From contig NZ_JABRPL010000001.1 of NCBI RefSeq assembly GCF_013249015.1, forward strand, positions 1 to 64,000: DNA of 64,000 nucleotides, given 5' to 3'. Positions within the stretch are counted from its first letter, which is position 1. Each line of letters starts with the position of its first letter. A model generated the notes under the pieces. It saw only the letters and a program-made list of their open reading frames with translations. It did no database searches and was not told the origin of the DNA. The translations under genes and the position numbers were made by a program. Of the stretch, positions 15,128 to 64,000 are shown piece after piece. The DNA comes from Rathayibacter agropyri (GTDB taxonomy: Bacteria; Actinomycetota; Actinomycetes; Actinomycetales; Microbacteriaceae).

Positions 15128-15201
<74 letters not shown>

Positions 15202-49538: not shown

Positions 49539-50082
49539 TGCCCGCTCTGCCCACTGTGTCCGTCCGCGCCCCTGTGCCCGTCCGCGCCGTCGTCGTGATG
49601 GGTGTCTCCGGCAGCGGCAAGTCGACGGTTGCGGCGCTGCTCGCCGAGCGGCTGGGCTGGGAGTTCCTCGAGGGGGACGGTCTGCATCCGGCCGCGAATG
49701 TCGAGAAGATGCGCGCCGGCATCCCGCTCTCAGATGAGGACCGTGCGCCGTGGCTCGCCGAGATTGCGCGCGTCGTCGACGAGCGGATCCGCGCGGGCCG
49801 GCCGGTGGTCGTGACCTGTTCGGCCCTGCGGCGGCGCTATCGCGACGTGCTACGCCGGGACGACCTCGTCTTCGCGCACCTCGCCGGCTCGCGCGACCGC
49901 ATCTCGGGACGCCTCGCTGCCCGCGTCGGCCACTTCATGCCGACGACGCTCCTCGACTCGCAGTTCGGCGCTCTCGAGCCCCTCGGGGAGGACGAGGCGC
50001 ACGTCACGGTCGACGTCGGTCGATCGCCGGAGGAGGAGGTCGCCGAGATCCTCGACCGGCTCGGCCTCTCGCCGGCCGCAGG

Positions 50083-50086
<4 letters not shown>
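49538..50086 (+). CDS. gntK: gluconokinase
   Basis: This 182-aa kinase phosphorylates gluconate to 6-phosphogluconate. It shows P-loop VVMGVSGSGKSTVAALLAER, then FLEGDGLHPAANVEKMRAGI followed by PLSDEDRAPWL, and CSALRRRYRDVLR, all diagnostic for GntK. ATG 49538 overlaps the stop of the decayed permease. Without its permease the kinase may depend on another gluconate importer or salvage internal gluconate. Confidence 0.9.
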
Positions 50087-51198
<1,112 letters not shown>

Positions 51199-51363
51199 GA
51201 GGGCTCCTTCGCTGTGGCCCTGAGGCGGGCGGGGACGCCGATCCTGCGCCGACGCTGCCCCTATCGTGCGAAGATCGTGCCCAGAGCGGGACACATTCCG
51301 CAGGATCATTCAGCGAACTGTGGTTCTCCCGCAGGACGAGCGGCGAGGAAGAGGAGCCGGCGT

Positions 51364-51849
51364 ATGCGGCCGAAGGATCTGCACGACCTCGATGACCTCG
51401 ATCCCGTCGACCGGACGCTGGTGCGCCTGCTCAGGGCGGACGCGCGCACTCCCAACAGCCGCCTCGCCGAGCGCGCGGGCATCGCTCCGTCGACCTGCGT
51501 CGCCCGTGTGCGCGGGCTGCGTGAGCGGGGGATCATCACCGGCTTCACAGCAGAACTCGACCCGGCCGCACTCGGACTCACGCTGCAGGCGCTGATCAGT
51601 GTCAACATCCGCGTGGGGCAGCGCCAGGCGATCACGCGGTTCGCGGAGGAGATCCGGGCGCTTCCCGAGGTGGTGCAGTTGTTCTTTCTGGGCGGCTCCG
51701 AGGACTTCATCATCCACGTTGCCGTCCGCGACTCGAACGATGTGCGCGACTTCGTGGTCTCGAACCTGTCGGCGCACCCCGCTGTGGCCTCGACGCGCAC
51801 GAGCCTGGTGTTCGACCACCACCGGATGGGCCCGTCGGTTCCAGAGTAG
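51364..51849 (+). CDS. Lrp/AsnC family regulator, probable AldR
   Basis: The 161-aa protein has an N-terminal HTH (DRTLVRLLRADARTPNSRLA followed by ERAGIAPSTCVARVRGL) and a C-terminal RAM ligand domain (ALISVNIRVGQRQAITRFAE). It is divergent from ald with 165 nt between. By analogy with AldR of mycobacteria it probably senses alanine or other amino acids and controls ald. ATG 51364 is taken; the frame is open far upstream but overlaps ald. Confidence 0.9.
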   Translation: MRPKDLHDLDDLDPVDRTLVRLLRADARTPNSRLAERAGIAPSTCVARVRGLRERGIITGFTAELDPAALGLTLQALISVNIRVGQRQAITRFAEEIRALPEVVQLFFLGGSEDFIIHVAVRDSNDVRDFVVSNLSAHPAVASTRTSLVFDHHRMGPSVPE

Positions 51850-52107
51850 TCAGTGTGCCCCGGGGGTGAGATCGCCGCCGCCGCGCTGCATCAGGCCGGG
51901 GATCCGCTTCGCGAGGCCGGGGATGCTCTCCTCCGAGATCGCGATCTGGGTGTCGCGGAGCCGCTGGCGCAGCAGCGCCTCGACGTCTTCGTCCGGCCTC
52001 AGCTCGGCGTCGCCAGCGACCTGGAGCAGGACGCCGCGCAGTTTCTCGTCCAGAGGCGCGTCGTTGCTGCCGTGCTGGATGGGGTGGTCCTGGGATGCGT
52101 TCGTCAT
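51850..52107 (-). CDS. small hypothetical protein
   Basis: This 85-aa polar protein contains DEKLRGVLLQVAGDAELRPD followed by EDVEALLRQRLRDTQI and ends GLMQRGGGDLTPGAH. It has no signal peptide or membrane span. ATG 52107 is the plausible start; the open frame to 52686 overlaps the DNA glycosylase gene. Its stop abuts the end of the Lrp-type gene. Function unknown. Confidence 0.65.
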   Translation of the reverse strand: MTNASQDHPIQHGSNDAPLDEKLRGVLLQVAGDAELRPDEDVEALLRQRLRDTQIAISEESIPGLAKRIPGLMQRGGGDLTPGAH

Positions 52108-52185
52108 GCGCCCATGCTGGCACCGGCGGCCGGTGGGGGAGAGGACTTGCGCGGGATACGGGGACCTGCACGCCAGGATGAGGGC

Positions 52186-52767
52186 ATGCCGTTCACCCGC
52201 GCCGAGCTCGCCTCGTTCCAAGGCCGCACCGTCGAGGATCTGCTCGGCGACGAGGTTCGCCTCCTCTTCGTCGGAATCAACCCCGGCCTGTGGACCGCTG
52301 CCACCGGCGCGCACTTCGCGCATCCCGGCAATCGCTTCTACCCGGCGCTCGTCGCCGCAGGCATCCTCGACCGGCCTCTCCGTGTGTCGGAGGGGATGAG
52401 CGACGCCGATCGAGAAGCTCTGCTCTCGAGAGGGATCGGCATCACGAACCTCGCCGCGCGGGCGACCGCGCGGGCCGACGAGCTGACCCGCGAGGAGCTG
52501 CGCGCGGGGGCCGAGCGCCTCGTCACCACCGTGGAGCGCGTGCGACCGGCCGCCGTCGCGCTCGTCGGGATCACCGCGTACCGCGCCGCCTTCGGCCGCC
52601 GCACAGCGAAGCAGGGCCGCCAAGCGGAGGATCTCGCGGGAGTGCCGCTCTGGGTGCTGCCGAACCCGAGCGGGCTGAACGCGCACGACACGGTTGCCTC
52701 GCTCGGCCGCGCCTACCGCGAGCCTGCGAGAGCCGCGGGAATCGTCGCTCCCGACCCCGAGGAATAG
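52186..52767 (+). CDS. mug: mismatch-specific uracil/thymine DNA glycosylase (MUG family)
   Basis: The 193-aa protein shows LLFVGINPGLWTAATGAHFA with the MUG catalytic Asn in GINPG. It also has HPGNRFYPALVAAGI, GIGITNLAARATARADELT, and VLPNPSGLNAHDTVASLG with the intercalation loop. It removes uracil or thymine from G:U/G:T mispairs. ATG 52186 follows GATGAGGGC. It is divergent from the small hypothetical gene. Confidence 0.9.
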   Translation: MPFTRAELASFQGRTVEDLLGDEVRLLFVGINPGLWTAATGAHFAHPGNRFYPALVAAGILDRPLRVSEGMSDADREALLSRGIGITNLAARATARADELTREELRAGAERLVTTVERVRPAAVALVGITAYRAAFGRRTAKQGRQAEDLAGVPLWVLPNPSGLNAHDTVASLGRAYREPARAAGIVAPDPEE

Positions 52768-52796
52768 CCGTCGTCACTCGGCGGTTGCAGAAGTCC

Positions 52797-53840
52797 ATGA
52801 GTATGCATGAAGTTACGTTCGGAGTCGACACCTTCGGCGACGTCACTGCCGGCCCGGATGGCGTGCCGCTGCCCCACGGCCAGGTGCTGCGCGATGTGGT
52901 CGAGGAGGGGGTCCTGGCGGACGCCGTCGGCATCGACTTCTTCGGCATCGGGGAGCACCACCGTGCCGACTTCGCGGTCAGCGCTCCCGACGTCGTGCTC
53001 GCAGCCATCGCCGCGCGCACCGAGCGCATCCACCTCGGCTCCGCCGTGACCGTTCTGTCCTCCGACGACCCGGTGCGCGTCTACCAGCGCTTCGCCACCC
53101 TCGACGGGATCTCCGGCGGGCGCGCCGAGGTCATCCTCGGCCGCGGCTCCTTCACCGAATCGTTCCCGCTGTTTGGCTACGACCTCTCGCAGTACGAACT
53201 CCTCTTCGAGGACAAGCTTGACCTCTTCCACGCTCTGGTGCAGGGCGGCCCGGTCACCTGGCAGGGCACCACCCGCCCCGCGCTGACCGAGCAGAGCGTC
53301 TACCCAGCGCTGGAAAACGGAAAGCTGCGCACGTGGATCGGCGTCGGCGGCAGCCCCGAGTCTGTCGTCCGTGCCGCGCGCTACGGCTTCCCGCTGGTGC
53401 TCGCGATCATCGGCGGCTCACCCGCTCGCTTCCGTCCCTACGTCGAGCTCTTCGGGCGAGCGCTCGACCAGCTCGAGCAGCCCCGGCTCCCCGTCGCCGT
53501 ACACTCGCCCGGCTTCGTCGCCGACACCGACGAGGAGGCGCGTGAGCTCTACTACCCGCACCACAGGGCGATGATGGACGCGATCGGCCGAGAGCGCGGC
53601 TGGTCACCGATGACCCGGGAGCGCTTCGATGAGGAGTCGGGCCCCGAGGGCGCCATCCACCTCGGCTCGCCCGAGACAGTCGCCCGCAAGATCGCAGGGA
53701 CGGTCTCGGCGCTCGGCATCGACCGGTTCGACCTGAAGTACAGCGCGGGCACCCTTCCCCACTCGGCAATCATGCGCACCATCGAGCTCTACGGCACGCA
53801 GGTCATCCCGCGCGTGCGGGAGATCCTCGCCGGGAGCTGA
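52797..53840 (+). CDS. LLM class flavin-dependent oxidoreductase
   Basis: This 347-aa luciferase-like TIM-barrel protein has FGVDTFGDVTAGPDGVPLPH, FFGIGEHHRADFAVSAPDVV, and the conserved SGGRAEVILGRGSFTESFPL. The C-terminal LGSPETVARKIAGTVSALGI also fits. It uses FMN or F420 on an unknown substrate. ATG 52797 and ATG 52803 are both possible. Confidence 0.88.
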   Translation: MSMHEVTFGVDTFGDVTAGPDGVPLPHGQVLRDVVEEGVLADAVGIDFFGIGEHHRADFAVSAPDVVLAAIAARTERIHLGSAVTVLSSDDPVRVYQRFATLDGISGGRAEVILGRGSFTESFPLFGYDLSQYELLFEDKLDLFHALVQGGPVTWQGTTRPALTEQSVYPALENGKLRTWIGVGGSPESVVRAARYGFPLVLAIIGGSPARFRPYVELFGRALDQLEQPRLPVAVHSPGFVADTDEEARELYYPHHRAMMDAIGRERGWSPMTRERFDEESGPEGAIHLGSPETVARKIAGTVSALGIDRFDLKYSAGTLPHSAIMRTIELYGTQVIPRVREILAGS

Positions 53841-53934
53841 TCGGGCGGCCCGGTGAGCGCTCCCGTCGGGTGCCCGGGCGGCGTCGATACACTCGAACAC
53901 CCGGTGATCCCGCCGCCCGACCCTTCGGAAGCAC

Positions 53935-54855
53935 ATGCCAGACAGCCACGCCGCCCGCACCCCCTACGAGGTGCTGGGCGTCGCCGCCACCGCGTCCGAC
54001 GACGAGCTCAAGCGGGCCTACCGCCGCCTGCTCCGCGAGACGCATCCCGACACGGGCGGTGACGCCGCCGCCTTCCACGCGGTGCAGGTCGCCTGGGAGC
54101 GCATCGGCAGCATGTCGGCGCGCGGCGACTACGACCGCGGCGCCCCGGCGCCCGGCGCCTCCTCTCCTCAGACGCCGTACACCGGCTCGCCGCGCCCGCA
54201 CAGCGCGTCGGCCGTGCGAGCCCGCTCGTACGGCCATCCCGGAGGCGCGGCACGCGAGTATTACCTGCGCCTCGTCCGCGAGTGGCTGGGCCGCGGCGCC
54301 GCTGTCGATGATCCATTCGACCCAGCCATCGTCCGCTCCGCCCCTCGCGAGGTCCGTTCCTGGCTCGCGAAGGCGCAGGCCGAGGAGGCGACCGCCGCCC
54401 TGGTCGGCGCCCTCGGCATCGCCTACACGATCTGGAACGACGTCGCGGTGGGCGATGGCGGCCTCAAGATCGACCACCTCGTGCTCGGCCCCTCCGGTCT
54501 GCTCGCGATCACCTCGGCTGACTGGGGCGACCCGGTCCGCCTCCGCAAGGGCGAGCTGGAGGGGCCGAGCATCGCCGACGACGAGAAGCCGATCTCGTCG
54601 CTGGCCAAGGCCGCGCGGCGGCTCGGGCGCGATCTCGGCGTGCGCTTCTCCGCGAGCGTCGTCGTGGTCCCTGATGATGCGCTGGAGCAGCCGTTCGAAC
54701 AGGTGGAGCGCGGCCGGCACCAGGGCGCCGTCGTCATCCGCCGCTCGCTGCTGCCGCAACTGCTGCGTTCCGGAACCGACGATCCCCGGCTGGGAGGCTA
54801 CGGCGAGGCGTTCGAGGTCCGCACCCGGGTCCAGAACCGCATCCGCTTCGTCTGA
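53935..54855 (+). CDS. J-domain protein with NERD-like C-terminal domain
   Basis: This 306-aa protein has an N-terminal J domain: TPYEVLGVAATASDDELKRA then YRRLLRETHPDTGGD with the HPD motif that stimulates DnaK. A Pro/Ser linker (about residues 70-100) leads to a C-terminal NERD-like region with GGLKIDHLVLGPSGLLAITS, the D-H-(x)n-G pattern of nuclease-related domains. It lacks the zinc and substrate domains of true DnaJ. It may deliver DNA- or RNA-linked clients to DnaK; unproven. Confidence 0.8.
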   Translation: MPDSHAARTPYEVLGVAATASDDELKRAYRRLLRETHPDTGGDAAAFHAVQVAWERIGSMSARGDYDRGAPAPGASSPQTPYTGSPRPHSASAVRARSYGHPGGAAREYYLRLVREWLGRGAAVDDPFDPAIVRSAPREVRSWLAKAQAEEATAALVGALGIAYTIWNDVAVGDGGLKIDHLVLGPSGLLAITSADWGDPVRLRKGELEGPSIADDEKPISSLAKAARRLGRDLGVRFSASVVVVPDDALEQPFEQVERGRHQGAVVIRRSLLPQLLRSGTDDPRLGGYGEAFEVRTRVQNRIRFV

Positions 54856-54970
54856 GCCGGAGCTAGCCGCCGGTTGCCGCCGGGGCAAGGGGTTAGCGCA
54901 CCTCCGCCCCGCCGCCCCAGCATGGAGTATGCCCGCGGGCATCCCACGACGAGCGGAACGAGGACGGACG

Positions 54971-55951
54971 ATGGTGCGATTCGGCTACACCCTGATGACC
55001 GAGCAGAGCGGACCCAAGCAGCTGGTTGGCTACGCGGTCGACGCTGAAAGGCTCGGCTTCGAGTTCGCGGTCTCGAGCGACCACTACTCGCCCTGGCTGA
55101 CCGAGCAGGGGCACGCCTCCTACGCGTGGACTCTCCTCGGCGCGGTCGCCCAGGCGACGTCGACCATCGACCTGACGACCTACGTCACTGCTCCCACCAT
55201 CCGCTACCACCCCGCGGTCGTCGCGCAGAAGGCGGCGACCCTGGCGATCCTCTCGGACGACCGCTTCACCCTGGGCCTGGGCTCAGGGGAGAACCTGAAC
55301 GAGCACGTCGTCGGCGAGGGGTGGCCCTCGGTCGCCGTCCGGCAGGACATGCTGGAGGAGGCGGTGCACCTCATCCGCGAGCTGCACACCGGCGAGTTGG
55401 TCACCTGGGAGGGCGACTACTTCCGTGTCGACTCAGCGCGGATCTGGGACCTCCCGGACAAGCCCGTCGAGATCGGTCTGGCCGTCTCCGGGACGAAGTC
55501 GATCGAGCGCTTTGCCCCGATCGCCGACCACTTCATCACCACCGAGCCCGACCCCGAGCTCATCTCGCAGTGGACTGCGGTTCGCGGAGCCGACGCCGCT
55601 CCGTCGCGCACCATCGGGCAGATCCCGGTCTGCTGGGCGCCCAGCAAGGAGCAGGGGGTGACGCTCGCCCACGAGCAGTTCCGCTGGTTCGCGGGCGGCT
55701 GGGCGGTCAACTCCGACCTGCCGACGCCCGCCGGTTTCGCGGGCGCGAGCCAGTTCGTGCGCCCGGAAGACGTCGCCGAGCAGATCGCCTGCGGACCGGA
55801 CCTCGACGAGCTTGCCGAGAGCGTCGTGCCCTACATCGAGGCGGGCTTCACCGACATCGCGCTGGTTCAGGTCGGCGACGAGCTGCAACAGCGCTTCCTC
55901 GACGAGGCGGCAGAGGGGCTGCTCGAGCGCCTGCGCTCCCTCGCCCCCTGA
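54971..55951 (+). CDS. LLM class F420-dependent oxidoreductase (TIGR03557-like)
   Basis: This 326-aa protein resembles F420-dependent glucose-6-phosphate dehydrogenase relatives: FGYTLMTEQSGPKQLVGYAV, SSDHYSPWLTEQGHASYAW, TYVTAPTIRYHPAVVAQKAA, and LGLGSGENLNEHVVGEGWPS. It probably uses coenzyme F420. ATG 54971 follows GAGGACG. No adjacent partner indicates the substrate. Confidence 0.9.
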   Translation: MVRFGYTLMTEQSGPKQLVGYAVDAERLGFEFAVSSDHYSPWLTEQGHASYAWTLLGAVAQATSTIDLTTYVTAPTIRYHPAVVAQKAATLAILSDDRFTLGLGSGENLNEHVVGEGWPSVAVRQDMLEEAVHLIRELHTGELVTWEGDYFRVDSARIWDLPDKPVEIGLAVSGTKSIERFAPIADHFITTEPDPELISQWTAVRGADAAPSRTIGQIPVCWAPSKEQGVTLAHEQFRWFAGGWAVNSDLPTPAGFAGASQFVRPEDVAEQIACGPDLDELAESVVPYIEAGFTDIALVQVGDELQQRFLDEAAEGLLERLRSLAP

Positions 55952-55971
55952 CTGAGGCGGGCGCTTCCCGA

Positions 55972-56349
55972 TCAGAAGCCGCGGAGGCGCTCGATGTCGC
56001 GGCGGTCGCGCTTCGTCGGCCGTCCGGCGCCGCGGTCGCGCACGATCACAGCGGGAGCCGACTCCCGCGGCGGAGGCGGAGGCGTGCGGTCCTCCACGCA
56101 CTCGGCGGCGACCGGGGCGCCGACCCGCTTGACCACCAGCCCGCGCACGACGAGTTCTCGGTCGAAGCCACCGATTCGGGCTCGCACCTCATCGCCGACA
56201 CGCACCGTCTGCGCCGCCTTCGCCCGCTCCCCGTTCACGCGGATATGGCCGGCCCGCGCGGCGGTCGTGGCGGCGGAGCGGGTCTTGTACACGCGGACCG
56301 CCCACAGCCAGGCGTCCACTCGCACCGAACCGGTCACCGGGATCTGCAT
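55972..56349 (-). CDS. S4 domain RNA-binding protein (Hsp15-like)
   Basis: The 125-aa protein begins with an S4 domain: RVDAWLWAVRVYKTRSAATT followed by AARAGHIRVNGERAKAAQTV. A basic tail with PTKRDRRDIERLRGF follows, as in HslR/Hsp15, which binds stalled 50S-nascent chain complexes. ATG 56349. It converges on the LLM gene. Confidence 0.88.
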   Translation of the reverse strand: MQIPVTGSVRVDAWLWAVRVYKTRSAATTAARAGHIRVNGERAKAAQTVRVGDEVRARIGGFDRELVVRGLVVKRVGAPVAAECVEDRTPPPPPRESAPAVIVRDRGAGRPTKRDRRDIERLRGF

Positions 56350-56438
56350 CCCGCCAGTCTACGAAACGGCCCGCTCCCTTCTCCACGGCCCACCATCCAC
56401 CCCGCGGCCCGCCAGAGGCCGCCGACAGAAGGATCGAC

Positions 56439-56981
56439 ATGAACCGAGACGACAGCATCTACTCCGGGTCCGACGACGCACGAGGCGACGACGCCCTTCG
56501 TAGTGACGACAGCCGCATGGTCGCCGCGAACGACAGCTCCGGTGCCGGTGGCACGCGCGGCGACGTCGGGATGAGCACCACGAGCGGCGCGGACACCGGC
56601 GTCCCCACGCGGGGCGCACCGCCGCACAGCGGCTCGCCCTCGGAGCTGCGGCCGACAGCCTTCCCGCATGCGGGCCTCGAGTTCTCGCTTGTCCCGTCGG
56701 GTCACGAGGAGTGGCGCATCGAGCACCCTGCTGGTCGCGCTGTCGGTGTGCTCGCCGTGATCTCCCACGCGGGCGAGGAGGCGGAGGCTGTGTTCGTCAC
56801 GCGCCGCGTCGGCTCCGAGGATGCCGTGGCCGAGGGCACGGACTGGCGCGGCATCGTGTCCGCCGTCATCAACGACGAGGCCGCCGATCAGCGCGACGCC
56901 GTGCAGCCCGACCCCACCGTCTCCCACGTGCGCGGCGGCCTCATCACCCGCGCCCCGTCCGCCCCCGACGCCCTCTCCTGA
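56439..56981 (+). CDS. hypothetical protein with disordered N terminus
   Basis: In this 180-aa protein the first 65 residues are Ser/Gly/Asp/Thr-rich and probably disordered. The second half has a compact region FPHAGLEFSLVPSGHEEWRI and VGVLAVISHAGEEAEAVFVT. No family recognised. ATG 56439 follows AGAAGGATC. It is the last core gene before the RiPP cassette, and an inverted-repeat element follows its stop. Confidence 0.7.
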   Translation: MNRDDSIYSGSDDARGDDALRSDDSRMVAANDSSGAGGTRGDVGMSTTSGADTGVPTRGAPPHSGSPSELRPTAFPHAGLEFSLVPSGHEEWRIEHPAGRAVGVLAVISHAGEEAEAVFVTRRVGSEDAVAEGTDWRGIVSAVINDEAADQRDAVQPDPTVSHVRGGLITRAPSAPDALS

Positions 56982-56990
56982 CCCCACTGC

Positions 56991-57060
56991 CCCTCCGCGA
57001 GATGCCACTCGAGGCCACCGTCACCCGGCGTGTCGCGTACCCAAGTGGCATCGCGGAGGG
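56991..57060. repeat. palindromic intergenic element, copy 1
   Basis: CCCTCCGCG (56991-56999) plus GATGCCACT (57001-57009) pairs with AGTGGCATCGCGGAGGG (57044-57060), with one extra two-base bulge, around a 34-nt loop. The right half (57022-57070) recurs at 60296-60352, on the other side of the inserted cassette, giving long direct repeats at both ends. Confidence 0.8.
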
Positions 57061-57070
57061 GGTCAGCGGG

Positions 57071-57223
57071 CGCCGCTGCGGTGCGGGTGCGCGTCAGCGT
57101 CGAGGGAGGGGCGATCGAGGAGAACCGTCAGCAGGGCGCCGAGCAGCGAGCCGCTGCCGTTGGACACGAGGTCCTGCACGTCGGCGACCCGGGTCGGCAG
57201 CCAGAGCAGCTGCGCCGTCTCAA
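57071..57223. pseudogene. duplicated, internally deleted fragment of pabC and vanZ
   Basis: Bases 57071-57120 match 61143-61192 (start region of pabC, one mismatch in 50). Bases 57117-57223 match 61256-61362 (end of vanZ, few mismatches). Relative to the intact locus a block of about 64 bp spanning the pabC/vanZ junction is missing. The match stops abruptly at 57223 where AT-richer DNA begins. This is a scar of a duplication or homologous import accompanying insertion of the RiPP cassette. Confidence 0.85.
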
Positions 57224-57397
57224 AGAAATTTAATTTTGCATAAGCCTTAGTGAGGAAGCGATGTTCTGGCCTAATAGCATAGGAAGCCTATTCAAGGCCC
57301 CGACGGGTCACTACTAAACCCCTGATCAGTGAACATTTCCAAGCTGGGAATCGCGTGGCCTGAATAAGCTCTACGGCAACCCTCGTGTAAAAAGCAG

Positions 57398-57425
57398 TTG
57401 CGGAAATATTGGCGTGGAGTAGGCT
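57398..57425 (+). promoter_or_regulatory. possible promoter of the RiPP precursor gene
   Basis: TTGCGG (57398-57403) and TAGGCT (57420-57425) are spaced by 16 nt and lie 31 nt upstream of the precursor ATG. Both boxes are imperfect. The sequence 57224-57397 holds no gene; a nested hairpin is possible at 57268-57299. Confidence 0.35.
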
Positions 57426-57455
57426 GCTCGCCCAAGCACACCAACATTTACAAGC

Positions 57456-57629
57456 ATGAAAGAAGATGAAATGAACAACGCGGGAATTTTTGCCATCGAG
57501 TTCGATCTGGATAATATCGAGGTCATAGACGTGGCAAAGGGCCTGGATGACCGTGCACTTGGAGTTTCAGCTTCCGACACTTGGGCTTACACGTCCTCGT
57601 CTTCGTCTACGTGCAGCTCCACCTGCTAG
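57456..57629 (+). CDS. RiPP precursor peptide (thiazolylpeptide/lanthipeptide-like)
   Basis: This short gene encodes 57 residues. The leader is acidic and has the box IEFDLDNIEVIDVAKGLDD, similar to FDLD/FNLD leader motifs recognised by LanB-type enzymes. The C-terminal 20 residues start SASDTWAYT and end TSSSSSTCSSTC, made almost entirely of Ser, Thr and Cys, the substrates for dehydration and azole or thioether formation. ATG 57456 has no good ribosome-binding site. The in-frame ATG 57471 has AAGAAGA upstream, so a 52-aa form is possible. The gene lies 160 nt upstream of a SpaB_C-domain gene, which supports the call. Exact class (thiazolylpeptide or class I lanthipeptide) is undecided. Confidence 0.75.
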   Translation: MKEDEMNNAGIFAIEFDLDNIEVIDVAKGLDDRALGVSASDTWAYTSSSSSTCSSTC

Positions 57630-57789
57630 AAGACGCATGGAGGCTTAGCAGAGCGCGGCAGGGTCAGTACGAAATCCTAGATCAACGCTTATTCCCAAGC
57701 CGTGGATCGTATGCTCGGCATAGATCTCATGATAGCGAAGTAAGGGTAATAAACCGGAGGCCGTCCGGCCCGGGCGAGGATCACGATCA

Positions 57790-58584
57790 GTGAGTGACAC
57801 CGATGAATCATACGTCGCGTTAAATCTTGAGTTGCGGATTCCCAACTTTGATCCGCGCATCGGTGACGAGGTCATCACCCGCGTTGCTCAAGATGTCGGT
57901 GGTAGACCGTGGTGGTTTCTCCGATACTGGCAATCGGGGCCGCACATCCGCTTCAGGGCCTTGCGCGGCGAAGACGTGGAAATCATCATGCAGTCGGTAA
58001 CGACCAGCTATATGGATTGTATGACCTCATCCTGGAAGGGTGTTACAGTACTGACAGATCGGGAATACCGGGACGCCACATTCAGCGCTGCACGACAGGG
58101 TGAAGGGCATGGTGAACTGGAGTCTCTGCCGCTCGCGCCCCTCGGAGTGCATGTGCGTCCGTTCGAAAGCGAAGAGACCCGGTATGGGGGAGTGCAGCGC
58201 TATCGCGCAGCCATTAGGGCATTTGCTGAGATAGTCAATCTAGATAAAACCACGGATGGCGACGAAAGAATACGACCGTCCGCTCCTCTGTCGAATAGCC
58301 CTGAGTTCGTTCCCGGATCGGTTGTGAAGATGATGGACCGGATAATTGGGAACTCTCGTCCAGACGGTTTCGAGCACGTGGACCCGCGTCTGGCTGGCCC
58401 GACGGTGACGGACGTGCTGAAAACCGGATTCGCGTCGATACACGGAACGTACCTCCGCTCGATAATTCACACCACATGCAACAGACTAGGGCTTGCAGTA
58501 GAGGCGGAGAGGTCGTTGCGCCGGACGGCCCTCGATCTAGTGGATAAACACCGTCGACCTTTACGCCGAGACGATATCAAATGA
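57790..58584 (+). CDS. stand-alone SpaB_C / thiopeptide-type bacteriocin biosynthesis protein
   Basis: This 264-aa protein corresponds to the C-terminal (elimination/cyclisation) domain of LanB enzymes. Diagnostic segments are WWFLRYWQSGPHIRFRALRG, PFESEETRYGGVQRYRAAIR and the C-terminal TYLRSIIHTTCNRLGLAVEA. In lanthipeptide systems this domain eliminates glutamate from glutamylated Ser/Thr. In thiopeptides stand-alone versions form the central pyridine by [4+2] cycloaddition. The large glutamylation domain is missing and not encoded nearby. GTG 57790 has a GAGGAT site. Composition is lower in GC than the flanks. It likely acts on the 57456 peptide. Confidence 0.85.
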   Translation: MSDTDESYVALNLELRIPNFDPRIGDEVITRVAQDVGGRPWWFLRYWQSGPHIRFRALRGEDVEIIMQSVTTSYMDCMTSSWKGVTVLTDREYRDATFSAARQGEGHGELESLPLAPLGVHVRPFESEETRYGGVQRYRAAIRAFAEIVNLDKTTDGDERIRPSAPLSNSPEFVPGSVVKMMDRIIGNSRPDGFEHVDPRLAGPTVTDVLKTGFASIHGTYLRSIIHTTCNRLGLAVEAERSLRRTALDLVDKHRRPLRRDDIK

Positions 58585-58638
58585 CCCGGCCTCGATTCGG
58601 TGGAAAAGTAAACCTATAGTAATAGGCAGGAGCAGTAC

Positions 58639-59301
58639 ATGTCTGATAGATCGCGCGTGAGTACACCTAAATCGAAAATTGTGATGGGTGCTCTCAACGT
58701 CGCGGTCCCGGTTGCGCTATATTATTTGTCCCGCGCTCTCGGCGCGAGTCAGGTTGTGGCGCTGATGACGGGAGTCGCCTGGTCTCTTGTCTCCACGACG
58801 TACGTCTTCGCGATCACCCGGCGGATCAGTGCAAGTTCCGGCGTTGTCGGTTTTCTCCTCTTGCTCAGTGTGATCACCGCATTAGTCACAGGGGATGCCT
58901 CGTCGGTCCTCGTCGCCTCCGGCATCGTGCCCGCGGGCATCGGTGTGCTCATGATTGTCTCTGCCGTCGCAGGACGACCCGTAATTCAGGGCCTGATCGC
59001 CCCGGCCATCGACGCCGCTGCGAAGAATGAGCGAGTTTCTGCTACGTGGATGTGGAACAACGAACCGACTTACCGACGCGCCATGATCGTGTCCACGGCT
59101 CTGTGGGGGTTCTTGGTCCTCGCCGAGGCAGTGGCCGGTGTAGTCCTGGCTGTGACTTTGCCGGTCGACGAAGTGGTGGTCATCCGTCCGGTGGTCGGCA
59201 TTCTAATCGTCGGGGTAGCTGGCGTCTGTCAGTACCTGCACATACGCCATCTGAAGAAGTCCGTACCCGAAGAACTACGTGAGGGTGGGAACGCCGAGTG
59301 A
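58639..59301 (+). CDS. six-TM membrane protein of the RiPP cassette (VC0807-like)
   Basis: This 220-aa protein has about six hydrophobic segments, starting LNVAVPVALYYLSRALGASQ and including VVGFLLLLSVITALVTGDAS and IVSTALWGFLVLAEAVAGVV. It resembles the poorly characterised VC0807-type membrane proteins. ATG 58639 has AGGAG upstream. It overlaps the start of the LLM gene, so it is in the same transcript as the RiPP enzymes. A role in immunity or export of the peptide is a guess from position. Confidence 0.75.
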   Translation: MSDRSRVSTPKSKIVMGALNVAVPVALYYLSRALGASQVVALMTGVAWSLVSTTYVFAITRRISASSGVVGFLLLLSVITALVTGDASSVLVASGIVPAGIGVLMIVSAVAGRPVIQGLIAPAIDAAAKNERVSATWMWNNEPTYRRAMIVSTALWGFLVLAEAVAGVVLAVTLPVDEVVVIRPVVGILIVGVAGVCQYLHIRHLKKSVPEELREGGNAE

Positions 59302-60104
59302 AGCAACCGCGGCTCGTGAATAATGTACGACGCAAGGCCATGAAATTCGGAGTCTCGTTCCTGCCGGACGTCGATCCTGGCCTACGGTCGCCGGTCCAGT
59401 ACTTCCGCGACCTCATTCGACTCAGCGTTCAGGCAGAAACGCTCGGATACGACTACGTCAAAATGACAGAGCACTATCTCGGGGACTATGGTGGCCATTG
59501 CCCGTCACCGATGATGTTCCTCTCAGCCGTAGCGGTCGAGACTCAGGACATCAGACTCATGACGGGAGGCATACTCCCGGTCTTCCATCACCCGATTCAG
59601 ATCGCATCGCACGCGGGCATGCTCGACGCCTTGAGCGACGGTCGCTTAGAGCTGGGATTCGCACGCGGCTTTCTTCCCTACGAATACGCAGCATTTCAGA
59701 TCCCGATGAGCGAGAGTCGTGACCGTTTCTGGGTAACCGTTGACGCAGTTCGTCGGTTGCTGAGCTCCGAGGACGTTTCCATAAGCAATAAGTACTGGGA
59801 ATTCGCGCACGTTACGACGCGCCCTAGACCGCGCGGTATCGAGGGAATTCGTTCTCTGGTGGCGGCGTCTACGTCGGAGGAGTCGTTTGTCCGCGCCGGA
59901 ATGCAGGGCGTGGGCTTGATGATCAGTCCCGGTCTCACCGCGCCATTGCCGCATCTCGTCAACACATACAGGAAAAGCTTTTTCCCGTCTGGCCACGATG
60001 CCGCCCCGCGGGTTGTGGTGCGGCGGTTTTTGCCGAGGAGGGCGAGGTGGGGGTCGTCAGGAGCTTCATCGGCGCCGGCTGGCACGGCTATGGGCATTGC
60101 GTGA
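59298..60104 (+). pseudogene. truncated LLM class flavin-dependent oxidoreductase of the RiPP cassette
   Basis: About 235 residues of a luciferase-like oxidoreductase are present: KFGVSFLPDVDPGLRSPVQY, YVKMTEHYLGDYGGHCPSPM, then LDALSDGRLELGFARGFLPY and YRKSFFPSGHDAAPR. LLM enzymes are normally around 330-350 aa. Homology seems to end near 60010 and the last 30 residues are Arg-rich junk. It starts at GTG 59298 (overlapping the membrane gene) or ATG 59340. In RiPP clusters such enzymes can reduce dehydroalanine or oxidise residues. A junction about 60010 probably removed the C terminus. Confidence 0.7.
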
Positions 60105-60290
60105 GCGCCACGCTGTCAGGTCGTGTCCTGCGACCCGTCGGGGAGTTCGATGACTTCGAGGTGGCCGAGCTGTTGAATTTGCCGCGCGCGACGCACGTCT
60201 TGCTCGCGGGATTTGGCGGCCTCGATCGTGAATTCGGTGCGGTTCACAGCTTGGTCTGACGGGATCACCTTGGTGGCGATCGGGTGCGCA
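60011..60290. other. junction DNA at right edge of the cassette
   Basis: Short frames exist on both strands (60047-60259 plus, 60116-60328 minus), but neither shows a family I recognise or a proper ribosome-binding site. The minus frame (AKSREQDVRRARQIQQLGHL) looks protein-like and may be a remnant of a lost gene. Confidence 0.4.
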
Positions 60291-60295
60291 TGCGG

Positions 60296-60352
60296 CTCAC
60301 CCGGCGTGTCGCGTACACAAAGTGCCATCTCGCGGAGGGGGTCAGCGGGCCG
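60296..60352. repeat. right-hand copy of the intergenic element flanking the cassette
   Basis: TCACCCGGCGTGTCGCGTAC and the following AAAGTGCCATCTCGCGGAGG repeat, with a few differences, the element at 57021-57060. GGGTCAGCGGGC follows in both places. The two copies are direct repeats bracketing about 3.3 kb. Confidence 0.8.
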
Positions 60353-60360
60353 GAGGGGGG

Positions 60361-61215
60361 TCAGCGGGCGAGGAGGGCGGTGTTGATGCGGGTCGAGAGG
60401 TCTCGGTCGACAGGGCGATCTACTCCGTTGACTGCGCGGATGGGTGCTGCGTTGCGGGCGCTTGAGACAAGCCAGGCCGCGTTCGCTGCGTCGAGGTCTG
60501 GTGCGCGGAGGGGTCGTACGGCGGTTCGTAGACCCAGGCTGGGCGCCAACTCGAACAGGTCGCTCTGCGTGGTGCCTGGCAGCAGCCCGAGGCTTGGTGG
60601 AGGTGTTACCAGTTCCTCGTCCGTCAGTAGCACGAGGGTGGAGGTCGGTCCTTCGAGTAGGTAGCCGTCGCTTGAGACGAAGACCGCGTCGTCCGCTCCT
60701 CGCCGCGCTGCCTCCCGTGTTGCCGCGCGGTTGACTGCGTAGGAGAGCGTCTTCGCTCCCGCGAGCAGCCAGGGTGACGTCTGCTGCACGTCCGATCGCA
60801 GTCCGCGGTCCAGGAGCACCACCCGAACGCCGTCGCGTCGTGCGGGACCGAAGTCGGGGCTGGTCTGCACGAAGACCACGCCGGTCGGTCGTCCGTCGCC
60901 CTCTACACCGCGGGTCAGGATCGTCTTCACCATCGCCTCGGCGACAGGCGGATGTTGGGCGACAGCGGTCGCGATCGCGCTCAGCCAGGCCGCGCGGTCC
61001 GGGCGGGGAAGCTCTAGCATTCGCGCCGATCGCTCGAAGCGGTCGAGGTGCGCGTTCACCGCCTGGAGACGGCCGTTGACGAGGTTGATCGTCTCGAAGA
61101 CGCCGTCGCCTCGGGTGAAGCCGAGATCGGTGACGTCGATGTCGCCGCTGCGGTGCGGGTGCGCGTCAGCGTCGAGGGAGGGGCGGTCGAGGAGGACGAG
61201 CGTGTCAGCGGGCAT
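60361..61215 (-). CDS. pabC: aminotransferase class IV, aminodeoxychorismate lyase-like
   Basis: This 284-aa PLP enzyme has TDLGFTRGDGVFETINLVNG at the N terminus and VNRAATREAARRGADDAVFV near the middle, where the KTLSYAVN segment carries the PLP lysine. DGYLLEGPTSTLVLL and PPPSLGLLPGTTQSDL follow. This matches PabC, which makes p-aminobenzoate for folate, although other fold-type IV aminotransferases look similar. ATG 61215 overlaps the 3' end of vanZ on the same strand. Confidence 0.85.
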   Translation of the reverse strand: MPADTLVLLDRPSLDADAHPHRSGDIDVTDLGFTRGDGVFETINLVNGRLQAVNAHLDRFERSARMLELPRPDRAAWLSAIATAVAQHPPVAEAMVKTILTRGVEGDGRPTGVVFVQTSPDFGPARRDGVRVVLLDRGLRSDVQQTSPWLLAGAKTLSYAVNRAATREAARRGADDAVFVSSDGYLLEGPTSTLVLLTDEELVTPPPSLGLLPGTTQSDLFELAPSLGLRTAVRPLRAPDLDAANAAWLVSSARNAAPIRAVNGVDRPVDRDLSTRINTALLAR

Positions 61216-61651
61216 GGGCGGTGCGGTCCTTCCGGGGGCGGCGGGGGTAGCGGATGAGGAGAACCGTCAGCAGGGCGCCGAGCAGCGAGCCGCTGCCGTT
61301 GGACACGAGGTCCTGCACGTCAGCGACCCGGGTCGGCAGCCAGAGCAACTGCGCCGTCTCAATGACGGCCGAGACGCCCAGGCCGATGAGCGCGGCGAGC
61401 AGGCGGCGGCGCGGAGGCAGTTGCGCGGCGACCAGCGCCCCGAGCGGCACGAACAGCAGCACGTTCGCGGTGAACTCCGCCACGGTGAAGTCAAACCAGC
61501 GGGTCAGCGGAGTCGAGCCGAGGAAGGCGATGATCCCGCGGATCAGGTCACTCGGCTCCCCGGAGGGGTATGGCGCGGGCGTCAGCGTGATCGAGGCAAT
61601 CACCGCGAGCCACGCCAACGTCGCGACGGGGAGCAGTCTCGAGCGGCGCAT
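61205..61651 (-). CDS. VanZ family membrane protein
   Basis: This 148-aa protein has four hydrophobic segments and the VanZ pattern: NVLLFVPLGALVAAQLPPRR, SAVIETAQLLWLPTRVADVQ followed by DLVSNGSGSLLGALL. VanZ proteins are linked to lipoglycopeptide tolerance and envelope functions; here the role is unknown. A truncated duplicate of its 3' end lies at 57117-57223. It overlaps pabC by 11 nt. Confidence 0.88.
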   Translation of the reverse strand: MRRSRLLPVATLAWLAVIASITLTPAPYPSGEPSDLIRGIIAFLGSTPLTRWFDFTVAEFTANVLLFVPLGALVAAQLPPRRRLLAALIGLGVSAVIETAQLLWLPTRVADVQDLVSNGSGSLLGALLTVLLIRYPRRPRKDRTAHAR

Positions 61652-61722
61652 CGTCCGATTGTGTCAGTCCGTCGCCGTCAGCACGTCCGACGCCGCGGGT
61701 CCCGTGTGGGAGGCTGGAGGGC

Positions 61723-62649
61723 ATGACGAGCGAGGACACCGGCGGCGCCTGCGTGCCCTCGCGCCCTCCGTTCGACTCCGCCCTCGGGGATGGGTGGGTC
61801 GAGATCGGCGACGGGCGCCGCTTCTGGGGTCGGTTCGGCGCCGCGGGCCTGCTGCTGCGTGATCCGGCCGACCGCGTCCTCCTCCAGCACCGCGTGAGCT
61901 GGAGCCACTTCGGCGACACCTGGGGCCTCCCCGGTGGAGCTCGGCATCCGGAAGAGTCAGCGTTCCAGGCCGCGCTCCGCGAGTCGGAGGAGGAGGCGGG
62001 CGTCCCCGCCGAGCTGATCGTCCCCGTCCTCTCCAGCGTGGTCACGATCGGACCCTGGAGCTACTCCACTGTCGTCGCCGACGCTCTCGAGCACTTCACC
62101 CCGCGCATTACCGACGCCGAGAGCACGGAACTGCGCTGGGTCGCTCCTGAGGACATCGACGCCCTCCCTTTGCATCCCGGATTCGCCGAAGCCTGGCCGG
62201 GCCTGCGCTCGCTGGCCGCGCCGTTGCCCGTGCTCGTGATCGACGCGGCGAATGTCGTCGGGTCGCGGCCCGACGGGTGGTGGCGCGATCGCGCTGGGGC
62301 CGCGCAGCGCCTCCTCCTTGCCCTCGCGCGGCTGGCGGCCACCGGGGTCCCGGGCGCGCTGCTCGGGATCGACGCCGAGACGGTCTGGCCGCGCGTCGTG
62401 GTCGTCCTCGAGGGCGCTGCCCGCGCCGCCGATTCGACCGCGGCCGTCGAGGCGGCACCCTCCGGACGCCTTCTCGTGGACTCCGCCGAGGGCTCCGGCG
62501 ACGATGCGATCGTCGACCTCGTCGCAGGCTTCGATGCCGTCGTCGTCGTGACCGCCGACCGCGGACTCGTCACCCGCATCGAGGCGCTCGGGGCGACCGC
62601 GACGGGACCACGATCCGTCCTCGATCTGCTCGACGCGGCCCGGGAATAG
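61723..62649 (+). CDS. NUDIX hydrolase fused to a NYN/YacP-like domain
   Basis: In this 308-aa protein residues 35-165 are a NUDIX domain with box GGARHPEESAFQAALRESEE followed by EAG. From about residue 172 a second domain begins VLVIDAANVVGSRPDGWWRD. It contains GDDAIVDLVAGFDAVVVVTA and DRGLVTRIEALGA, the acidic Asp pattern of NYN/PIN-like nucleases (YacP type). The fusion joins nucleotide hydrolysis with a possible RNase. ATG 61723. It is divergent from vanZ. Confidence 0.82.
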   Translation: MTSEDTGGACVPSRPPFDSALGDGWVEIGDGRRFWGRFGAAGLLLRDPADRVLLQHRVSWSHFGDTWGLPGGARHPEESAFQAALRESEEEAGVPAELIVPVLSSVVTIGPWSYSTVVADALEHFTPRITDAESTELRWVAPEDIDALPLHPGFAEAWPGLRSLAAPLPVLVIDAANVVGSRPDGWWRDRAGAAQRLLLALARLAATGVPGALLGIDAETVWPRVVVVLEGAARAADSTAAVEAAPSGRLLVDSAEGSGDDAIVDLVAGFDAVVVVTADRGLVTRIEALGATATGPRSVLDLLDAARE

Positions 62650-62677
62650 GCCGTCGGGCACCCCGGTTGCATCCCCC

Positions 62678-63067
62678 ATGACCACGACGCCGATGACCCT
62701 CGACTCCCATGACCAGACGATCGCCGACGGCATCGTTTTCATCGACTTCTGGGCCGACTGGTGCGGCCCGTGCAAGCAGTTCGCGCCCGTCTTCGAGGCG
62801 ACGAGCGAGAAGAACGCTGACATCACCTTCGCCAAGGTCGATACGGAGGACCAGCAGCAGCTCGCCGCGAGCTACGGCATCTCGTCCATTCCGACGCTCG
62901 TCGTCTACCGCGACGGCATCCCCCTGATGGCCCAGCCGGGCGCCTTGCCGGCCCCCGCCCTCGACAACCTGATCGAGCAGGTCCGCGGCCTCGACATGGT
63001 CGAGGTGCGTCGTCAGTACGAGGAGGCGAAGGCAGCCCAGGAGGCGAGCGCCGCCTCGCAGGTCTGA
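62678..63067 (+). CDS. thioredoxin
   Basis: The 129-aa protein has the active site WADWCGPCKQFAPVFEATSE with the CGPC redox pair, then FAKVDTEDQQQLAASYGISS followed by IPTLVVYRDG with the cis-Pro. About 25 extra C-terminal residues (EVRRQYEEAKAAQEASAASQ) form a charged helix. Cytosolic disulphide reductase. ATG 62678, 28 nt after the NUDIX-NYN gene. Confidence 0.92.
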   Translation: MTTTPMTLDSHDQTIADGIVFIDFWADWCGPCKQFAPVFEATSEKNADITFAKVDTEDQQQLAASYGISSIPTLVVYRDGIPLMAQPGALPAPALDNLIEQVRGLDMVEVRRQYEEAKAAQEASAASQV

Positions 63068-63090
63068 TCCCGCAACGGCGTCGTTCGAGA

Positions 63091-64000
63091 TCAGCCCGTG
63101 TTCTGCAGGCCCGCCGCCACGCCGTTGACGGCCAGCAGGAGCAGGCGCTGGTTCTGCTCGGTGCCCGAACCGCCCGGGTCGGTCCGCAGGGCACGCAGGG
63201 CACGCAGCTGAAGGAGCGAGAGGGCGTTCACGTAGGGCGTGCGCAGCCGCACCGCCCGGCCGAGCACCCGATGCCCGGTGAGCAGACTCTCCTCTCCCGT
63301 GATCGAGAGCACCCAGCGGCGGGTCAACTCCATTTCGCCGAGCACGAGGCCGGCGAGATCGTCGCGGGAGTCGAGCGCGAGGTAGCGGCGAGCGATCCCC
63401 TCGTCGGTTTTCGCGAGCGACATTTCGACGTTGTCGATCATCGTCGTGAAGAGCGGCCAGGAGGCGTAGGCCGCCTGGAGCAACTCCAGGTCCCCGACCG
63501 CCTCAAGGGCGCTGCCCAGGCCGAACCACCCGGTCAGGTTGACGCGTGCCTGCGTCCACGCGAAGACCCACGGAATCGCCCGGAGGTCCTCCAGCGACTC
63601 GACCGAGAGACCGCGGCGGGCCGGGCGCGAGCCGAGTGCGAGCAGCCCCACCTCCTCCTGCGGGGTCACCCGGGCAAACCACGGGGCGAAGCCGTCGGCC
63701 TTGACCAGCTCGAAGAACCGGCGACGGGATTCGCGGTCCATCGTCGCGGCGACCTCGGCGAAGCGGTCAGCGGCTGCGGCATTGCGCTCGCCGACCGCGG
63801 GGGAGGAGGCGAGAAGCGTCGCTCCCGCGACCTGCTCGATGTGTCGGGTCGCGATGTCGGGGTTGCCGTAGCGGGCGAAGATGACCTCGCCCTGCTCCGT
63901 GAGCTTGAACCGGCCGTCGACCGAACCCGGCGGCTGCGCGAGGACCGCGCGGTTCGCTGGACCGCCACCGCGACCAAGCGCACCGCCGCGGCCGTGGAAC
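63091..64000 (-). CDS. ppc: phosphoenolpyruvate carboxylase, C-terminal part (runs off the window)
   Basis: The minus-strand frame enters at 64000 as FHGRGGALGRGGGPANRAVL, the conserved bicarbonate/PEP site loop. It continues GSVDGRFKLTEQGEVIFARY, then LRAIPWVFAWTQARVNLTGW followed by FGLGSAL, and ends with the invariant QNTG C terminus. About 300 of roughly 900 residues are present; the 5' part lies outside. It replenishes oxaloacetate from PEP. Convergent with thioredoxin. Confidence 0.95.
   Translation of the reverse strand, partial: FHGRGGALGRGGGPANRAVLAQPPGSVDGRFKLTEQGEVIFARYGNPDIATRHIEQVAGATLLASSPAVGERNAAAADRFAEVAATMDRESRRRFFELVKADGFAPWFARVTPQEEVGLLALGSRPARRGLSVESLEDLRAIPWVFAWTQARVNLTGWFGLGSALEAVGDLELLQAAYASWPLFTTMIDNVEMSLAKTDEGIARRYLALDSRDDLAGLVLGEMELTRRWVLSITGEESLLTGHRVLGRAVRLRTPYVNALSLLQLRALRALRTDPGGSGTEQNQRLLLLAVNGVAAGLQNTG

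Follow-up and report, generated by a model that had tools for sequence, protein, structure and literature searches.

Four small genes lie side by side in the stretch of 64,000 nucleotides analysed here (the window), and they raise a simple question: do they form a minimal peptide pathway that borrows its missing enzymes from elsewhere, or are they what is left of a larger cluster? All four reading frames are present as the original prediction had described them:

57456 to 57629, plus strand, likely start 57471: P0001, thiazolylpeptide-type RiPP precursor with a Ser/Thr/Cys tail (TIGR03892)
57790 to 58584, plus strand: P0002, stand-alone SpaB_C protein of the LanB elimination type (PF14028)
58639 to 59301, plus strand: P0003, hydrophobic (membrane) protein of the VC0807 family under purifying selection, a candidate self-protection gene (NF041646)
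59298 to 60104, plus strand, inner ATG at 59340 as alternative start: P0004, truncated luciferase-like (LLM) flavoenzyme (PF00296)

The genes point in the same direction and the last two frames share four bases, an arrangement that suggests an operon. We consider it quite probable that the locus reached a Rathayibacter-like chromosome by horizontal transfer and that it is an incomplete, decaying piece of a thiopeptide-like RiPP cluster.

The first gene encodes a precursor of the thiopeptide type, as judged from its match to TIGR03892 (27.4 bits, E 3.2e-6, cut-off 25). Frame and family agree with what had been proposed; the start does not. Position 57471 (52 aa) is more likely than 57456 (57 aa), because a second copy of the locus, in another genome of the genus (G403), has an ATG there and none matching 57456. 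The 52-aa precursor had no tblastn match among plasmids. A class-level search gave hits in 8 of 389 genomes. Four of these hits are precursor-like small ORFs (L147-L150) whose leader is acidic and whose Ser-rich tail ends in Cys; L152 sits within a long open frame, and L151, L153 and L154 showed no precursor match. Among the loci of the precursor-like ORFs, ORFs of the SpaB_C or pyridine synthase type are matched in L156, L157 and L158, and YcaO also in the first two; L155 matches a nitroreductase-type ORF only.

The second gene product was said to be a SpaB_C protein, and the profile search bears this out: PF14028 scores 48.7 bits (cut-off 24.4) over profile positions 25-109 of 255 only, while TIGR03891 stays at 31.8, under its cut-off of 48.45. 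When aligned with eight SpaB_C proteins of RiPP loci, P0002 keeps R54, R56, E128, Y132, G133, H227, N231 and R232, which are invariant in all eight; R131, which is replaced by K in two of the eight, is also present. The NisB mutants R786A, R826A and H961A glutamylate without eliminating, as stated in the available part of PMC4979651 and, for H961, also in the accessible text of PMC4341554. R54/R56, R131 and H227 of P0002 would be the counterparts of these NisB residues.

The same Pfam family comprises the [4+2] pyridine synthases, and P0002, being a stand-alone protein, might be taken for a TbtD-like enzyme instead of an eliminase. This assignment is very improbable. P0002 reaches 11.9 with NF045556, compared to 259.3 for the TbtD-like protein of another genome of the genus (G264), which is itself below the cut-off of 325. 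Profile alignments further reveal the motifs RYGG and HxxCNR (R131-YGG and H227-xxCNR in P0002) in MibB, but not in TbtD. Because P0002 keeps both motifs, like MibB and unlike TbtD, it resembles an eliminase rather than a pyridine synthase.

Of P0002, a profile built from the eight relatives recognises the first half and the end only (profile 23-153 and 283-312); the middle goes unrecognised. Compared with the SpaB_C region of G403, P0002 is short of 37 codons. Since each of the eight relatives has residues where these codons fall in the alignment, the difference is read as a loss in the window copy. Scans with degenerate patterns hit 43 stretches in genome_contigs and 9 in viral_contigs, none of them a confirmed relative; tblastn against plasmids gave no match, and a single-sequence PDB search returned unrelated weak matches only. 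The single-sequence fold, with a mean pLDDT of 36.8, was too poor to use.

To look for other cluster enzymes, we used 148 ORFs as queries, each 150 aa or longer and taken in all frames from eight cluster loci; many of them are not genes. In the 64-kb window the SpaB_C gene was their sole match; glutamylating LanB, YcaO, azoline dehydrogenase and pyridine synthase had no tblastn match at E ≤ 0.01, which agrees with the local absence of LanB and YcaO noted before. The same queries found nothing in the 28 kb around the G403 copy, its worn SpaB_C included, and the search thus overlooks degraded copies. In a six-frame search, the LanB-N domain (PF04738) was matched at E ≤ 0.001 in 2 of the 15 genus genomes, G264 and G222, none over the cut-off; G403 had no match at this threshold. 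G264 holds a complete thiopeptide-type cluster, with scores of 41.4 bits for PF04738 (cut-off 28), 99.3 for TIGR03891, 30.4 for nitroreductase and 184.2 for YcaO. G222 has a separate locus of the LanB/SpaB_C type (TIGR03891 89.5), which tblastn did not connect with the island at E ≤ 0.05; there, a candidate Ser-rich peptide lies beside the LanB/SpaB_C-type genes (L107 5185-10250).

The LLM enzyme and the membrane protein had been regarded as typical of such pathways. The loci at hand do not support this view: next to the cluster loci examined, convincing homologues of either protein were missing, and the genomes and loci compared yielded no intact cluster that contains both this LLM and this membrane gene. 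Proteins of the VC0807 kind did not accompany RiPP genes in these loci.

The LLM gene is indeed truncated, as had been suspected. P0004 matches PF00296 with 148.1 bits over profile positions 1-227 of 314, i.e., over the first two thirds only; the C-terminus is missing. Its homology to the best plasmid matches ends near residue 234, at about base 60000, and four plasmid homologues are annotated as 355-365 aa. All NCBIfam matches are under their curated cut-offs. Altogether 1038 plasmid records were matched. The four plasmid homologues have NRPS-type genes around them; none of the neighbours is annotated as a RiPP gene. Between the cut gene and the right border repeat (see below) lie about 300 bp (60001-60296) with 67% G+C; two ORFs of 70 aa in this segment have no Pfam match, and the segment has no match in the comparison loci.

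How did the genes get there? The surrounding chromosome is of Rathayibacter type; an LLM protein encoded near 55-56 kb of the window shares 92% identity with its counterpart in Rathayibacter sp. VKM Ac-2630 and 87% with that in VKM Ac-2754. From about 57.2 to 60.0 kb, G+C drops from the chromosomal 71% to 48-59%. This island is absent at the corresponding site in two Rathayibacter relatives (L001 and L002), where the counterparts of window positions 56950-56983 and 60360 are separated by 50 and about 10 bases, respectively. Because the low-G+C stretch is missing from both relatives, the four-gene set sits on an insertion. Its borders show the following elements:

57021 to 57071, plus strand: left copy of an imperfect border repeat of about 50 bp
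57071 to 57226, plus strand: left edge of the island, where partial copies of 61143-61197 and 61243-61365 are fused (start of an aminotransferase gene and VanZ-like gene)
57281 to 57379, plus strand: MITE-like palindrome with imperfect terminal inverted repeats, about 95 bp
60297 to 60350, plus strand: right copy of the border repeat

The border repeat (57022-57040 and 60298-60316) occurs twice in the window against a mean expectation of 0.12, and one of 100 shuffles reached two. An extended pattern of the repeat was met at 10 places in 6 of the 15 genus genomes; the backward control gave 0. The fused copy is 97-98% identical to its chromosomal source in the best aligned parts and 93-96% over the repeats as initially detected. 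The palindrome adjoins the precursor gene on its upstream side and has relatives in two of five genus genomes searched (G264 and G222, not G403, G001 and G002). In G264, two palindrome copies in opposite orientation (L086 7193-7281 and 17317-17405), together with further inverted repeats, flank the complete thiopeptide-type cluster. These features hint at transposon-like movement. Rfam has no match in 50000-64000, and the sole tRNA of the window is located at 15128. Promoter-like sites are few and near chance (3 versus 1.3 expected); terminator-like sites number 7 versus 2.5 expected, from which we draw no conclusion.

G403 is the one genome out of 15 in the genus that contains the precursor, the SpaB_C gene, the membrane protein and the start of the LLM gene in the same order. 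P0002 finds its counterpart there at E 2.4e-17 (G264 shows a weak match). The window flanks do not match the surrounding 28 kb, and the G403 copy is therefore at another site. The genes lie on a low-G+C stretch and homologous DNA has the same order in a second genome; their association is thus more than chance.

The G403 set is more degraded than that of the window. A scrambled precursor beside a preserved SpaB_C gene had been named beforehand as an outcome that would refute the prediction. Half of this is seen in G403: the precursor frame is broken ahead of its tail, but the SpaB_C region is altered as well: residues 1-44 are unmatched, the match starts at residue 45 and runs partly in another frame, and the arginine of RYGG is replaced. 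Homology to the LLM protein ends after residue 47 and is followed by a transposase-like fragment (DDE_Tnp_4, 21.5 bits, below the 24.8 cut-off). The membrane gene, in contrast, is open to near its end.

Selection differs between the genes. The dN/dS values are derived from one pair, window versus G403, in which the lineage of each change is indeterminable. For the membrane gene, compared at 219 codons, dN/dS is 0.166 (Fisher p 6e-16), with 23/12/57 differences at the three codon positions. In the SpaB_C gene dN/dS is 0.612 over 227 codons (Fisher p 0.0045), and the differences are nearly even (61/61/73). Aligned by protein, the values are 0.158 for the membrane gene and 0.85 for SpaB_C. The precursor leader yields 0.108 (38 codons, p 9.3e-6), the start of the LLM gene 0.342 (27 codons, p 0.03), and the precursor tail 0.69 (13 codons, p 0.64), the latter value being uninformative. 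The membrane gene and the precursor leader are strongly constrained, SpaB_C weakly.

Could the locus then work as a minimal cassette, in which a functional precursor and eliminase borrow LanB, azole enzymes or a cyclase in trans? The open frames of precursor and SpaB_C in the window, the purifying selection on the leader, the elimination-type motifs of P0002 and the LanB-N matches in 2 of the 15 genus genomes are in its favour. The lost 37 codons and the unrecognised middle of P0002, the weak constraint on SpaB_C and the truncated LLM gene count against it, as does the degraded state of the homologue in G403, a genome without LanB-N match. Functioning in trans would, if true, make the pathway unusual in its layout. 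The evidence leans away from it, and we deem it rather improbable. Decay also meets with objections: the window frames of precursor and SpaB_C are open, the leader is constrained, the dN/dS of SpaB_C is below 1, and a frame of 322 aa is still open across the SpaB_C region of G403, so that no stop proves decay there. The empty site, the cut LLM gene, the failure of the 148 ORFs to match any other thiopeptide enzyme in the window and the more degraded set of G403 nonetheless argue for a partial cluster rather than a minimal pathway, which was also the choice of the original prediction.

If the locus is such a decaying fragment, the chemistry of its ancestor can be sketched. A glutamylating LanB would have loaded glutamate on Ser and Thr of the precursor tail, and the SpaB_C protein would have eliminated it to leave dehydroalanine and dehydrobutyrine. 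A cyclodehydratase and a dehydrogenase would have formed azoles. The LLM enzyme may have served redox tailoring, perhaps the reduction of dehydro residues as proposed for LanJC. The present locus would retain the precursor, the eliminase, the membrane protein and the cut LLM gene and, since only these remain, no mature product is expected from the locus alone.

Protection of the cell may be the reason why the membrane gene persists. P0003 scores 119.9 with NF041646 (VC0807_fam, cut-off 65), and its hydrophobic sequence predicts that it crosses the membrane. Its only homologue among the 15 genus genomes is that of G403 (86% identity); 10 plasmid records matched, every one below 60% identity. 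P0003 may be a retained self-protection gene. That the locus is kept because this protein guards against the cognate peptide of competitors is possible, albeit doubtful, and is compatible with a decaying fragment. The membrane gene alone combines a frame that is almost entirely open in both copies with strong purifying selection, which speaks for such a role. Ten VC0807 loci of the order, however, surveyed with flanks of at most about 8 kb (one locus measures just 4.4 kb in all), showed no match to cluster ORFs or to the SpaB_C profile nearby, and the cluster loci lack a convincing VC0807 homologue. A more specific version is unlikely: the fragment would be kept by selection, VC0807 providing self-immunity to a thiopeptide-like product and being retained with the leader-conserved precursor after loss or decay of the synthetase.

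The locus illustrates the scattering and break-up of such peptide clusters within one genus, and the membrane protein P0003 is a possible immunity factor that can be put to the test. The chemistry belongs to a known type; what stands out is the constrained membrane gene. In the available text of the literature on Rathayibacter thiopeptide and RiPP clusters, no description of the four-gene set was found, and a literature search for cluster remnants revealed none. A dehydrazole pathway was set aside, as such pathways use LanM-type enzymes according to the accessible part of PMC10676384.

With the thiopeptide or thiazolylpeptide clusters that have a split LanB (thiomuracin type, as in G264) the window shares a TIGR03892-type precursor and a stand-alone SpaB_C protein of the elimination type. 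Unlike them, it has no match for LanB-N, YcaO, nitroreductase or pyridine synthase, and it adds the LLM and VC0807 proteins, unseen in the cluster loci examined. Split LanB proteins together with a luciferase-like LanJC, proposed to reduce dehydro residues, are described for birimositide in the available portion of PMC7268733. The window resembles these lanthipeptide clusters in having an LLM flavoenzyme beside a Ser/Thr/Cys-rich precursor; birimositide, however, is a two-component, lacticin 3147-like system by that account, whereas the LLM protein of the window is cut, below the curated NCBIfam cut-offs and not the full-length enzyme expected of a LanJC. Finally, the excerpted text of PMC7143919 reports a thiopeptide cluster unique to population RT-V of Rathayibacter toxicus, of which one gene was suggested to be horizontally acquired. 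By description, not by sequence, the two are alike in being of the thiopeptide type, in the same genus, population-specific and of suggested horizontal origin; the nearest relatives of the window, in contrast, belong to other species.
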